The notes under the pieces: generated by a model | Told to the model about the DNA's origin: nothing | The model's database searches: none | What the model saw: the letters and a program-made list of their open reading frames with translations, nothing else | Assembly: GCA_026197075.1 (NCBI GenBank) | Contig: JAPHQV010000025.1 | Location: 186,001-250,000, forward strand | Origin: Gammaproteobacteria bacterium | GTDB taxonomy: Bacteria; Pseudomonadota; Gammaproteobacteria; DSM-19610 | DNA: 64,000 bases | Direction of reading: 5' to 3' | Part shown: positions 1,861-8,067 of the stretch, in pieces | How positions within the stretch are numbered: the stretch's first letter is position 1 | Layout of the letters: the number at the start of each line of letters is the position of its first letter | Position numbers and translations under genes: made by a program

Positions 1861-2481
1861 TCAGGGCAGAGACAGGGCCCGGCGCAACAGGCGCACCATC
1901 TCCCAGCCGGCCTCGTCGGCATCCCGGCCAAAACTGACGACTCCGTCCTGGTGACCGCCCATGGCGAGCGCGCCATGTCCATGGAAACCCTGCTCCCGGT
2001 AGAGCCTGGCCATCTCAATGGCCATCTCCGGCGTGCCGTAGGCGACCTCCGCAGCGGTAGTGGCCAGGCCCAGTGACTCGCGTGCCTGCCAGATCTCGGG
2101 TGAATGACCATGAATGATGCAGCCAATCTGCGGGTCCGCATCATAGAGCGCGGCATGGGTGAGGCTCTCCGAGGAAGGTTTTGCGGGACCTTGCGCACGA
2201 ATGTAGTTGGCCGCGCAATCCCAATTCGTGACCTGGCAGTAATCATTGGCGCCAGGCAATGGGCTGTCCGCGGTCTGGCTGGCGCTGATGGCAAAGCCAT
2301 TTCCGGCCAGACGCAGGCTGAGGTTGCCGTAGGCCAGACCGCCGTAGCGATCCGGGACGCGCCCGAGCAGGCCGAGTCCCTGCATGATGCGCTGCCAGGC
2401 GATCAGTTCGGTGAGCGGCAAGCTGCCGGGGTGTGACCCGGGCGTGAATTCCAACCGGTACTTGATGACCCCTTCTTCCAT
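1861..2481 (-). CDS. Class II aldolase/adducin family protein
   Basis: A 206-residue protein with class II aldolase/adducin features: YGNLSLR at 51-57, a SxT element near 68-70, SSES at 103-106 followed by TH, and the metal-ligand pair HGHS at 124-127. A later GGHQDG near 175-180 supplies another His. The family covers zinc-dependent sugar-phosphate aldolases, epimerases and dehydratases; the substrate here is unknown. The start is taken at the ATG at 2481; a GTG three codons upstream (2490) is equally possible because neither has a strong ribosome site. It converges on the diguanylate cyclase with a 16-base gap. The 200 bases upstream, towards sufE, show no gene. Confidence 0.8.
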   Translation of the reverse strand: MEEGVIKYRLEFTPGSHPGSLPLTELIAWQRIMQGLGLLGRVPDRYGGLAYGNLSLRLAGNGFAISASQTADSPLPGANDYCQVTNWDCAANYIRAQGPAKPSSESLTHAALYDADPQIGCIIHGHSPEIWQARESLGLATTAAEVAYGTPEMAIEMARLYREQGFHGHGALAMGGHQDGVVSFGRDADEAGWEMVRLLRRALSLP

Positions 2482-2691
2482 CGCCCACACTCACTCGCAG
2501 CTCGAAAGCCATCAGACATGATGGCAATAGCCTACTTGTCCTGCCGAACAGCGTCCACGATCAGGATCAACCCAGGTTCGCAAGAAACGGAGTGGTGACC
2601 TTCAATGAGGTGTTGAGCCAGCTTTCCGAGCTGGAAAGGCAATAGGGTCGCAGGAGGGAGCTGGGTGAATTCCTGGGCGAACCCCGGGAGT

Positions 2692-3147
2692 TCAGGCCAC
2701 GCTCCGCGCAGATGAATGCAGCTTGCGTGCCTGGGTCTTCATCAATTCCACAATGGCGTACACACCCAGGTGCCGGTTGGGGGACAGGTGCTCATCCAGG
2801 CTGAGACGGCTGAACAGCTCGTCCACATCCAGCGCGTCGATTTCCTTTTGTGTGCCGCCGCCGATCAGGTCGATGAGCAGGGCCAACACGCCCTTGATGA
2901 CGCTGGTATCGCAGTCACCGTGGAAACGGGTACGGTTGGCATGCTCGGGGTCGCGGTAGGCGCTTACCCAGACCTGGCTCATGCAGCCCTTGACCTTGTT
3001 GGCCTCGGTCTTGAGCTCTTCCGGCATGGGTGGCAGCTGCTCGCCCAGCTCGATGAGGTACTGGTAGCGCTGGTCCCAGTCCTCGAGGAGTTCAAAGTTA
3101 TCGACGATCTCGTCCAGGTTGCTCATCCCGGTATCCTGTTCATTCAT
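2692..3147 (-). CDS. sufE: SufE-family sulfur acceptor
   Basis: A 151-residue SufE protein. Family proteins accept persulfide sulfur from a cysteine desulfurase on one cysteine and pass it to the SufBCD scaffold. Cys55 in KGCMSQVW is the expected acceptor. The start at 3147 gives an ATGA overlap with sufA; a second Met seven codons in (3126) is an alternative. It is the last gene of the suf operon. The desulfurase partner SufS is not encoded here, so SufE must work with an enzyme from another locus such as IscS, or CsdA/SufS elsewhere. That partner is inference. Confidence 0.92.
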   Translation of the reverse strand: MNEQDTGMSNLDEIVDNFELLEDWDQRYQYLIELGEQLPPMPEELKTEANKVKGCMSQVWVSAYRDPEHANRTRFHGDCDTSVIKGVLALLIDLIGGGTQKEIDALDVDELFSRLSLDEHLSPNRHLGVYAIVELMKTQARKLHSSARSVA

Positions 3148-3470
3148 ACGCTGAAGGATTCGCCGCAACCACAGGCATCCTTCACGTTCGGGTTGCGGAA
3201 CTCGAAGCCCTGGTTGATGGCATTGGTGCGGATGTAGTCCACTTCGGTGCCATCGAGTGCCGGCAAGCTGTTCTTGTCCACCACCACCTTGACGCCGTGG
3301 CTTTCGAACACCAGGTCGTCCTCGTTTTGGCTGTCGGCGTACTCCACTACGTAGGCAAAACCGCTGCAGCCGGATTTTCGGGTCGCCAGGCGCAGGCCCA
3401 GGCCATGGCCGCGCTTTGCGAGCATGGCCTGTACATGATTTGCCGCATTGGATGTCAGTTCAACTGCCAT
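3144..3470 (-). CDS. sufA: A-type iron-sulfur carrier (SufA/IscA/ErpA family)
   Basis: A 108-residue HesB-like protein with the three conserved cysteines of A-type carriers: Cys35 in SGCSGF and Cys100/Cys102 in ACGCGESF. These proteins bind a transient Fe-S cluster or iron and hand clusters to apo-enzymes. It lies 15 bases after sufT and overlaps sufE by four bases. Paralogues in this family are hard to separate by sequence, so the sufA name rests on its place in the suf operon. Confidence 0.9.
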   Translation of the reverse strand: MAVELTSNAANHVQAMLAKRGHGLGLRLATRKSGCSGFAYVVEYADSQNEDDLVFESHGVKVVVDKNSLPALDGTEVDYIRTNAINQGFEFRNPNVKDACGCGESFSV

Positions 3471-3485
3471 GGTGCATACCTCTTG

Positions 3486-3866
3486 TTAAAACAAACCCAG
3501 GGAAAGCTTGGCCTCGTCGCTGATGCGATCCTGGTCCCAGGGCGGATCCCAGACGAGGGTTACTCGCGCTTCCTGTACCCCATCGACCGCGCGAACCGCA
3601 TCCTCCACCTGGCGTGGCAGGATACCGGCCACCGGGCAACCCGGTGCGGTCAGCGTCATGTCGATATCGACCTTGCCCTTGTCATCGATGTCGATGGCGT
3701 AGATCAGGCCCAGGTCGTAGATGTTCACCGGGATTTCCGGATCATAGACCGTACTCATCGCCGCGATGATCCGCTCGCGCAAGGGTGCATCGGGGGGCAG
3801 GCTTGCTGGTTTCGGCTCTGTGTCCGGTGCCAATGGTTCCCGAAAACGTACGGCTTTCACATCCAT
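3486..3866 (-). CDS. sufT: Fe-S maturation protein SufT (MIP18/DUF59 family)
   Basis: A 126-residue protein whose MIP18 domain starts near residue 28, with the signature DPEIPVNIYDLGLIY (about 42-56) and Cys77 in TAPGCPVAG. SufT is an auxiliary Fe-S maturation factor in many SUF operons and becomes important when Fe-S demand is high. The N-terminal 27 residues are Pro-rich and probably flexible. It lies five bases after sufD, exactly where sufS would be expected in the common sufBCDS-T order. Confidence 0.92.
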   Translation of the reverse strand: MDVKAVRFREPLAPDTEPKPASLPPDAPLRERIIAAMSTVYDPEIPVNIYDLGLIYAIDIDDKGKVDIDMTLTAPGCPVAGILPRQVEDAVRAVDGVQEARVTLVWDPPWDQDRISDEAKLSLGLF

Positions 3867-3871
3867 GACGG

Positions 3872-5209
3872 TTACTCCAGAGTCTCGGTTGCGGTACGTA
3901 TGGTGGCGGTCAGGCGTTCCATGGCCTGCTCGCGCAGAATCGGTACCTCGATGGTGTCGATGATCTCACCGGCAAAACCCAGGCACAGCATGCGGCGCGC
4001 GGAGTCCGTGTCGATACCGCGCGAGCGCAGGTAGAAGACCTGTTGTGGGTCCAGCTGGCCGACCGTGGTGCCATGGCTGCACTGTACATCGTCGGCGTGG
4101 ATCTCGAGCTGTGGCTTGGTATCCACCTCGGCATCACGCACCAGCATCAGGTTGTCGTTGCGCAGTTGCGCATCGCTTTTCTGCGCCTGCTTTTCCACCA
4201 GGATGCGACCATCGAAAACGGCCCGACCCTTGCCGAAGAGGATACCCTTGAAGCGCTCGCGGCTGGTGCAGTTCGGGACGCTGTGACGGATATCCAGGTG
4301 GAAATCGGTCAGCTGCCCCTTACCCACGGTGTAGAGGCCATTCAGCTCGCACTGGGCCGCCTCGTGCTGGAAGCGGGCCTGGTATTCGGTGCGTGCCCAG
4401 CGCCCGCCGAAGGACAGGCTGGTGCCCTGGTAGCGGCTGTGTGCATCCTGGGAGAGGTAGAGGCTGGCCAGGTGCCAGGATGCCCGGCTCTCTTCCTGCA
4501 TGCGGTAGTGTCGCAGCTCGGCACCTTCCTGCAGCACCAGCTCGGTGACCTGGTTGTGGAAATACACCGCCTCCTCGGCGCCGATGAAACGTTCCACCAG
4601 GGTGGCGCTGGCGCCGGGTTCCAGCACCACCAGGTTGCGCGGCTGGTTGAGCAGTGCCTTGTCCTGTTCCAGGTTCAGGTAGACCACTTCGATGGGACGG
4701 TCGAGCTCCACATCGGCCGCGATGTGCAGCAGCAGGCCGTCATGGATCAGGGCGGTGTTGAGGGCGCTGAACAGGTGTTCTTCATGGGCACCGGTATGGT
4801 TCAGCCAGGTGGCCAGCAGCTTGGGGTCTGTGCCCAGGGCGGCGCGCAGGCTGCCCAGGGTCACGCCCGTGGGCAGCTCGAGTCCTGTGGCCAGGCGCGG
4901 GATACACTGGCCATTGACGAATACCAGGCGGTAGACGTCCGCGGCCGGACCGAGCCAGGGTTCCAGTTCCTCGTGGGTCCAGGTGCGCCCCTGTTCCACG
5001 GCCGGTGTGAATTCCTGCTGCAGCAGGCCTTCTATGCTGGTGTAGCGCCAGGCCTCGAGTTTACGGTTGGGCACCGGGAGCTCGCGAATGGCGTCACGGG
5101 CGAGAACGCGGGTATTGCGCAGCCAGTCCGGTTCCGGCCCGGACTGTTCGGGTTCGGAACTGCTGGCCAGGGCACTGAACCAGCCGCGTTGTTCCGTCAG
5201 GGTGCTCAT
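3872..5209 (-). CDS. sufD: Fe-S cluster assembly protein SufD
   Basis: A 445-residue SufB/SufD-type beta-helix protein. The C-terminal region carries the family signature around ADDVQCSHGTTVGQLD and FYLRSRGIDTDSARRMLC. SufD pairs with SufB and two SufC ATPases to form the SufBC2D scaffold on which Fe-S clusters are built in the cytoplasm. It begins four bases before the end of sufC (ATGA overlap), so the pair is translationally coupled. Length is normal for the family. Confidence 0.95.
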   Translation of the reverse strand: MSTLTEQRGWFSALASSSEPEQSGPEPDWLRNTRVLARDAIRELPVPNRKLEAWRYTSIEGLLQQEFTPAVEQGRTWTHEELEPWLGPAADVYRLVFVNGQCIPRLATGLELPTGVTLGSLRAALGTDPKLLATWLNHTGAHEEHLFSALNTALIHDGLLLHIAADVELDRPIEVVYLNLEQDKALLNQPRNLVVLEPGASATLVERFIGAEEAVYFHNQVTELVLQEGAELRHYRMQEESRASWHLASLYLSQDAHSRYQGTSLSFGGRWARTEYQARFQHEAAQCELNGLYTVGKGQLTDFHLDIRHSVPNCTSRERFKGILFGKGRAVFDGRILVEKQAQKSDAQLRNDNLMLVRDAEVDTKPQLEIHADDVQCSHGTTVGQLDPQQVFYLRSRGIDTDSARRMLCLGFAGEIIDTIEVPILREQAMERLTATIRTATETLE

Positions 5210-5964
5210 GCCGCGGCCTCCTCTTCGATCCAGCCATAGCCCTTTTCCTCGAGCTCCAGGGCCAGATCCTTGTCTCCGGAACGCAGGATGCGTCCGCCCA
5301 CCAGCACATGGACATGATCCGGCTGGATGTATTCCAGCAGACGCTGGTAATGCGTAATCAGGATGATGGAGCGGTCCGGGGTACGCAGGGCGTTGACGCC
5401 ATCGGAGATGACACGCAGGGCATCGATATCCAGACCCGAATCGGTTTCATCCAGGATCGCCAGGCGTGGCTCCAGCATGGCCATCTGCAGGATCTCGTTG
5501 CGTTTCTTCTCGCCGCCGGAAAAGCCCGAGTTGACGTTGCGCTTCAGCAGTTGCTCGTCGAGTTTGAGATGTCGCGCCTCTTCCTTCACCCGTTTCATGA
5601 ACGCAACCGCATCCAGTTCCGGTTCGCCGCGGGCACGACGGTTGGCATTCATGGCTTCACGCATGAAAGTCATATTGTTGACGCCCGGCAACTCCACGGG
5701 ATATTGCATGCCGAGGAAGATGCCGCGGTGGGCACGCTCCTCGGTGGCCAGGGCCAGCAGGTCCTCGCCGTCGAAACGGACCTGGCCGCCCGTGACCTCG
5801 TAGCCGTCCCGTCCCGCCAGTACATGGGACAGGGTACTCTTGCCCGAGCCATTGGGGCCCATGATGGCGTGCACCTCGCCGGGGGCCACCTCCAGGTTCA
5901 GCCCCTGCAGTATGGTCTTGCCGTCGATGCCGGCGTACAGATCCTTGATGGATAGCATGTTCAT
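5206..5964 (-). CDS. sufC: Fe-S cluster assembly ATPase SufC
   Basis: A 252-residue ABC-type ATPase. Walker A is GPNGSGKST at 36-44, the ABC signature is in FSGGEKKRNEILQMA, and Walker B with its catalytic residue is in LAILDETDSGLD. SufC powers conformational change of SufBD during cluster assembly; it is cytoplasmic and not a transporter. The start at 5964 follows an AGGAG motif four bases upstream. A Met two codons later (5958) is also possible. An open frame continues upstream of the start, but it runs into sufB and is not coding. Confidence 0.96.
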   Translation of the reverse strand: MNMLSIKDLYAGIDGKTILQGLNLEVAPGEVHAIMGPNGSGKSTLSHVLAGRDGYEVTGGQVRFDGEDLLALATEERAHRGIFLGMQYPVELPGVNNMTFMREAMNANRRARGEPELDAVAFMKRVKEEARHLKLDEQLLKRNVNSGFSGGEKKRNEILQMAMLEPRLAILDETDSGLDIDALRVISDGVNALRTPDRSIILITHYQRLLEYIQPDHVHVLVGGRILRSGDKDLALELEEKGYGWIEEEAAA

Positions 5965-5978
5965 GATTCTCCTGTTGC

Positions 5979-7427
<1,449 letters not shown>

Positions 7428-7446
7428 AAGGTTACCCGTCTCCTGC

Positions 7447-7475
7447 TAATACCAGAGTAATTTACTCGGGTATTA
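7447..7475. promoter_or_regulatory. Candidate IscR/Rrf2-type operator of the suf operon
   Basis: The arms TAATACCAGAGTAA (7447-7460) and TTACTCGGGTATTA (7462-7475) are inverted repeats matching at 13 of 14 positions around one central base. The inner 25 bases (7449-7473) agree at 22 of 25 positions with the E. coli IscR type 1 consensus as I recall it (ATASYYGACT, RWWWY, AGTCRRSTAT). The mismatches include the symmetric swap of GACT/AGTC to GAGT/ACTC. Two weak promoter fits exist on the minus strand: TTGTAA with TGGTAT inside the palindrome, or TTGAAA (7498-7503) with TGTAAT spaced 20 bases. Either way the palindrome would sit on or just past the promoter, consistent with repression. Protein identity is inference. 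Confidence 0.7.
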
Positions 7476-7578
7476 CAATGGACCCCCTGGAGGCGGATTT
7501 CAAGACCCTATCGGGCAGGGCTTTTATCCGGTACAAACCCTGTGGCGATTGGCTAAACTATTGATCTTTCCAATAAAT

Positions 7579-7607
7579 TTGAGTTTTGTTCGGGATTCTG
7601 GTATGAT
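7579..7607 (+). promoter_or_regulatory. Sigma70 promoter with extended -10
   Basis: TTGAGT (7579-7584), a 17-base spacer and TATGAT (7602-7607), with TGG just before the -10 giving an extended -10 element. Transcription should start near 7614 and read rightward into a leader of about 170 bases before the small cysteine protein at 7783. It is one of the best promoter matches in the window and is divergent from the suf promoter. Confidence 0.75.
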
Positions 7608-7613
7608 TCCGCT

Positions 7614-7782
7614 TCCTTTCCTTCATCCAGCGGGTTCCGCCGCGGATGCCGAAGGTTCCTTCGCCCACCGGGGGAATCTCGACGGAACGGTCCTGGTACC
7701 GTACACCACGAAGCGATCGTGACCTGAACGTAATGGCGCGCCCGACCATTACTCATTTGGCTTCTCGACAAGGAGAATGATT
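7614..7782 (+). ncRNA. Long, foldable 5' leader upstream of the four-cysteine protein
   Basis: Between the predicted start site and the ribosome site lie about 170 bases with several stems. GTTCCG (7634-7639) pairs with CGGAAC (7683-7688) and encloses CGAAGG-TT-CCTTCG (7650-7663). Further on, GTAATGG (7730-7736) pairs with CCATTAC (7746-7752) around a nine-base loop, 18 bases before AAGGAG. A 15-codon reading frame starts at 7733 and stops at 7780, overlapping an ATG at 7777 by four bases; it has no clear ribosome site. I do not recognise a known riboswitch class. This could be a regulatory leader or simply a stable UTR. Confidence 0.4.
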
Positions 7783-8067
7783 GTGAGCAAGGAACTGATG
7801 TTCTACTGCATCCCCCAGCAGGCCTATATGCGTACCACCAATTGCGAAAACCTGCGCAAGCGCCCAGTGGGCAAGGCGCCCGCCGGTGCCCAGCCCAAGC
7901 TGCGTGCCTGTGAGCGCTGCACCATGTATCCGCTTGTGGACGGTCGCAAGGTTCCCACCGTCACCCTCGAACAATACCTGGGCGGCGACAAGCCAAAGGT
8001 CTCCAACCTGCAGACCGTGGCCAACAAGAAAATCATCCAAGAACATCTGGCCCGGCAGGCCAGCTGA
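7783..8067 (+). CDS. Small four-cysteine protein of unknown function
   Basis: A 94-residue protein I do not recognise. Cysteines are at 9, 21, 43 and 46, with the last two in ACERC (CxxC), a spacing compatible with metal binding or redox function. The rest is basic and polar with no signal peptide or membrane helix, so it is probably cytoplasmic. The GTG start at 7783 is preferred because AAGGAG lies seven bases upstream; the ATG at 7777 is too close to it. The gene is divergent from sufB and has its own strong promoter and long leader, which suggests real expression. A link to Fe-S or sulfur metabolism is only suggested by location. Confidence 0.75.
   Translation: MSKELMFYCIPQQAYMRTTNCENLRKRPVGKAPAGAQPKLRACERCTMYPLVDGRKVPTVTLEQYLGGDKPKVSNLQTVANKKIIQEHLARQAS

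Follow-up and report, generated by a model that had tools for sequence, protein, structure and literature searches.

We propose that the near-palindrome upstream of sufB is an IscR type 1 operator that lies over the suf promoter and would repress suf, the backup set of Fe-S assembly genes, when IscR holds its cluster, a prediction to which we give a probability of about 0.8. In the window, that is, the whole 64-kb stretch of DNA analysed, the palindrome TAATACCAGAGTAATTTACTCGGGTATTA occupies positions 7447-7475; it is 29 bases long, pairs at 13 of 14 arm positions around a central T, and is separated from the sufB ATG by a gap of 19 bases (7428-7446). Coordinates and pairing were re-derived and agree with what a sequence-only reading of this DNA had described. 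The predicted operator core is the inner 25 bases (7449-7473, minus strand), which read ATACCCGAGTAAATTACTCTGGTAT on the suf strand, and the full near-palindrome adds a flanking TA/TA to it. The core was compared with ATASYYGACTRWWWYAGTCRRSTAT, the consensus for type 1 sites of E. coli IscR, which was itself checked against the sequence of the iscR promoter in E. coli. The two agree at 22 of 25 positions, the same count as in the sequence-only reading, with exactly three mismatches; no other place in the window comes within three mismatches of ATASYYGACTRWWWYAGTCRRSTAT, and none of 100 dinucleotide shuffles gave a comparable match. The mismatches include positions found to be C/G-degenerate, and once C or G is permitted at positions 9 and 17, the sufB site scores 18/19, with 14/19 for the runner-up in the 64 kb. 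Because the bare palindrome is not unique in the window, where three 29-mers, this one included, reach 13 of 14 arm pairs, the weight of the argument falls on the motif match and on conservation. The assignment to type 1 is made from sequence: the site is a ATASYYGACTRWWWYAGTCRRSTAT-like 25-bp inverted repeat, it is conserved at orthologous promoters, it recurs elsewhere in the genome, and it sits upstream of Fe-S assembly genes, where it overlaps a putative promoter.

The operon behind this site is encoded on the minus strand and starts with sufB (5979-7427; NF008773, 913.8 bits), which is followed by sufC (5206-5958; TIGR01978, 361 bits), sufD (3872-5209; TIGR01981, 268.2 bits, above the cut-off), a SUF-associated protein with a SufT-type domain (3486-3866; TIGR02945, 153.9 bits, above the cut-off), an A-type carrier resembling IscA/SufA (3144-3470; above the cut-off of TIGR00049, slightly below that of TIGR02011) and a SufE-like sulfur acceptor (2692-3168; NF006792, 110 bits, below the curated cut-off of 160). 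The suf operon (window 1861-7427, minus strand) has no sufS, and no protein in the whole genome scores above the SufS family cut-off; IscS may thus be the sulfur source for the suf genes, as one would expect if suf and isc are controlled jointly. A footprint alignment of four family members shows three main blocks of conservation ahead of sufB: TTGAAATCC, CATnnTAATAC and the operator. The first is invariant and contains a candidate -35 element, TTGAAA (7498-7503, minus strand). The second contains a candidate -10 element, CATTGT (7475-7480, minus strand), 17 bp from the -35, which adjoins and slightly overlaps the palindrome; CATnnT followed by AATAC is invariant in the four genomes, and the 17-bp spacing is kept. 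CATTGT is a weak match to TATAAT and a poor sigma-70 hexamer. Since a scan for consensus promoters found none on the suf strand, it is conservation that argues for both elements, and the arrangement suggests that the operator overlaps the -10 and the start point of the suf promoter. On the opposite strand, a 96-aa ORF (7777-8067) without any NCBIfam match is directed away from sufB, and a sigma-70-like promoter (7579-7607) lies ahead of it.

The sequence-only reading had made its proposal depend on the palindrome being kept in close relatives and on the genome encoding an Rrf2-family regulator, and it had suggested a genome-wide scan for further sites; the palindrome is kept, such regulators are present, and further sites were found. 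Within the family, a type-1-like site (17-19 of 19) stands before sufB in all eight other genomes with a readable sufB start, that is, in nine of nine with this genome counted. The closest genome of the same genus carries one extra mismatch in a half-site, ACTA instead of ACTC. Beyond the family, about nine more lineages have the site before sufB: one f2 genome, families f20, f23 and f37, Marinobacter, Alcanivorax and three MAG lineages. Overall, 19 of 107 sufB loci have a site that scores 16/19 or better, a level reached by 3 of 2140 dinucleotide-shuffled controls and by one reversed control. At two of the loci (L103 in genome G013 and L104 in G010), two type-1-like sites stand in tandem upstream of sufB, an arrangement similar to the paired sites before E. 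coli iscR.

Among the proteins of the genome are four of the Rrf2 family: three IscR paralogs and one NsrR/RirA-like protein. IscR1 (contig C57) is encoded directly before iscS and is 65% identical to E. coli IscR, with a recognition helix, ISERQGISLSYLEQLF, identical to that of the E. coli protein. IscR2 (contig C39) likewise has the three Cys and the His ligands; both proteins score above the TIGR02010 cut-off, and their Cys92/98/104-His107 ligands align with those of E. coli IscR. IscR3 (contig C2) is 47% identical to E. coli IscR and has no Cys in the ligand region. The helix motif SxSYLEQLF and the wing RGPGGGY are common to all three. Genome-wide, the strongest matches to the pattern stand before sufB, the three iscR genes, erpA and one gene of the Sfum_1244 family. 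The site of the last (C11:85076-85100, locus L006) lies between this gene and a divergent gene for a 195-aa protein of no known family. In most genomes of the family, the Sfum_1244 gene is likewise preceded by a related site, often AT[AT]CCATAST...ASTCRGGTAT, which suggests that it is an uncharacterised Fe-S-linked gene. Weaker IscR-like sites were seen 34 bp before a DsrC/TusE-type gene (C14:75536-75560, L012) and 5 bp before queD-folE2 (C27:51393-51417, L014).

We propose the following mechanism. Read along the suf strand, the -35 (7503-7498) and the -10 (7480-7475) would place the start point near 7468, within the operator, which would cover the beginning of the suf promoter. When clusters are plentiful, [2Fe-2S]-IscR would bind the operator and block transcription of sufBCD-sufT-sufA-sufE; the binder would most likely be the C57 protein from the iscR-iscS locus, or else the Cys-bearing C39 paralog. 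When clusters are scarce, IscR would lose its cluster and leave the operator, and suf would come on along with iscR-iscS, the iscR3-iscU locus and erpA, where sites of this kind are also found. According to a review, it is holo-IscR that binds type 1 sites, most of which precede genes for Fe-S assembly (isc, erpA, nfuA), and all of these are repressed; E. coli suf has a type 2 site through which apo-IscR activates, in addition to control by Fur and OxyR (PMC8593673). The best match to the type 2 pattern AWARCCCYTSNGTTTGMNGKKKTKWA upstream of sufB here is 17/24, which is at background level, since the 64-kb window has 18 places that do at least as well, and it is not conserved beyond the genus. 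The sequence-only reading had suggested that, with a type-1-like site, suf would follow holo-repression and not the type 2 logic of E. coli; the site, its conservation and the iscR genes support this, and by analogy IscR with its cluster would keep suf repressed, while a shortage of clusters would lift the repression. Binding by IscR, its dependence on the cluster and the sign of the regulation are what we infer here.

The paralog without cluster cysteines might allow a different division of labour. Its gene (genome G000, contig C2:277-729, minus strand, L004) lies directly upstream of iscU, and a Cys-less IscR is found directly before iscU in all 18 family genomes with readable downstream DNA. 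These proteins form a supported clade within the family, and the gene carries a type-1-like site of its own. In a closed genome of the family (G003), the isc genes are split into iscR1-iscS-hscB-hscA and iscR3-iscU, with hscB and hscA named from their translations only. Cys-less or nearly Cys-less iscR-like genes also stand beside iscU in three other families (f153, f101 and f37), and a literature search for a Cys-less IscR next to iscU found no paper, which is not proof of absence; for IscR2, the literature search gave nothing but ISCR insertion elements. Since the paralog retains the DNA-contacting motif and is conserved in the family with a type-1-like site of its own, it might compete with IscR for the suf site or share it, so that suf repression would be partly independent of the cluster. 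We consider this quite unlikely: in E. coli, the apo form of IscR is said to recognise type 2 and not type 1 sites (PMC8593673), and the Cys-less protein retains E43. A wider idea, speculative and on the whole unlikely, is a network of three paralogs whose single set of type-1-like operators is served both by cluster-bearing IscR and by the conserved cluster-free form that is encoded with iscU. If it were true, suf and the split isc genes would be tuned by cluster-sensing and cluster-blind versions of one regulator. In any case, a conserved IscR without a cluster ligand beside iscU makes the role of a cluster-blind IscR directly testable.

The sequence-only reading had also taken the symmetric change of the core from GACT/AGTC to GAGT/ACTC as the sign of a co-evolved variant regulator, and this does not hold. 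From relatives we compared 95 type-1-like sites that precede sufB, iscR1-3 or Sfum_1244, and found 28 with GACT/AGTC, 45 with the mixed GACT/ACTC, the commonest class, 10 with GAGT/AGTC and 10 with GAGT/ACTC. The choice of C or G at positions 9 and 17 is uncorrelated between the halves (Fisher p = 0.44, and again p = 0.44 for the 73 distinct sites), these being related and therefore non-independent sequences; the scoring of sites took C and G as equal at both positions and so introduced no bias between them. Read directly, the E. coli K-12 iscR promoter contains site A, ATACCCGACTAAATCAGTCAAGTAA, and site B, ATAGTTGACCAATTTACTCGGGAAT; the latter has the ACTC half and has 14 of 15 bases in common with the right part of the sufB site. 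Because the halves vary independently and E. coli site B has ACTC, the symmetric change is within the normal degeneracy of IscR sites, as judged from sequence; together with the unchanged recognition helix (ISERQGISLSYLEQLF, as in E. coli), this leads us to reject a co-evolved variant specificity. A regulator of altered specificity, either the Cys-less paralog or IscR2, that controls suf apart from the isc sites is likewise very improbable, even though IscR paralogs exist, one of them without cluster ligands, and the genome has two full GAGT/ACTC sites, before sufB and the Sfum_1244 gene. Genomes of the family that share the three paralogs show every C/G combination, and before sufB they have GACT/AGTC, GACT/ACTC or GAGT/AGTC; SxSYLEQLF and RGPGGGY are unchanged in every paralog. 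The sufB site is best read as an ordinary IscR site, with no pointer to a new regulator. That it serves another Rrf2 or unrelated repressor (an NsrR-type protein or Fur), or arose by chance, is hardly credible: the genome does encode an NsrR/RirA-like protein and two further 29-mers in the window are equally palindromic, but the site fits the IscR type 1 class, is conserved before sufB in different families and is seen again ahead of iscR and erpA.

At sufB loci, a type-1-like site and a neighbouring Rrf2 gene do not occur together. Of the 107 sufB loci (L017-L126), 19 have the site without a neighbouring Rrf2 gene, 61 have the gene without the site, none has both and 27 have neither; the mutual exclusion is strong (Fisher p = 8e-9), although nine of the 19 site-bearing loci come from one family, so that the number of independent lineages is nearer ten than 19. 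Five of the neighbouring Rrf2 regulators were scanned; four of them belong to the SUF regulators of TIGR02944, and the fifth resembles IscR. In this genome and its family, no Rrf2 gene lies within about 1.1 kb upstream of sufB. This suggests that control through the operator and control by an adjacent Rrf2 gene (SufR-type in four of five cases) substitute for each other, and that outside enterobacteria suf is often a plain holo-IscR-repressed operon.

Several known systems help to place this arrangement. The E. coli type 1 sites (iscR A and B, erpA) have the same 25-bp inverted repeat with ATA/TAT ends and a GA-T/A-TC core, and likewise stand before Fe-S assembly genes, the right half-site before sufB here being nearly identical to iscR site B; in E. 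coli, however, suf is under a type 2 site, whereas here a type-1-like site precedes sufB. The SufR-type Rrf2 regulator beside sufB (TIGR02944) gives local control of the suf operon in other proteobacteria, but its gene is absent at this locus and never co-occurs with the operator in the 107 loci. In Caulobacter, holo-IscR also represses the suf genes and iron starvation induces them (PMC11475020); there, iscR is the first gene of a joint isc-suf operon and the motif is another, while here a separate suf operon would be controlled in trans. In Myxococcus, one Fe-S-loaded Rrf2 protein, RisR (group IS6), represses both the isc and the suf operons through a palindrome (PMC9973013), although RisR is distant from IscR and its motif is of the type TGAC-N7-GTCC. 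Holo-type repression of suf is therefore not new as a logic, since it is known from Caulobacter (PMC11475020) and from Myxococcus RisR (PMC9973013), and it is the enterobacterial scheme that probably does not apply here.
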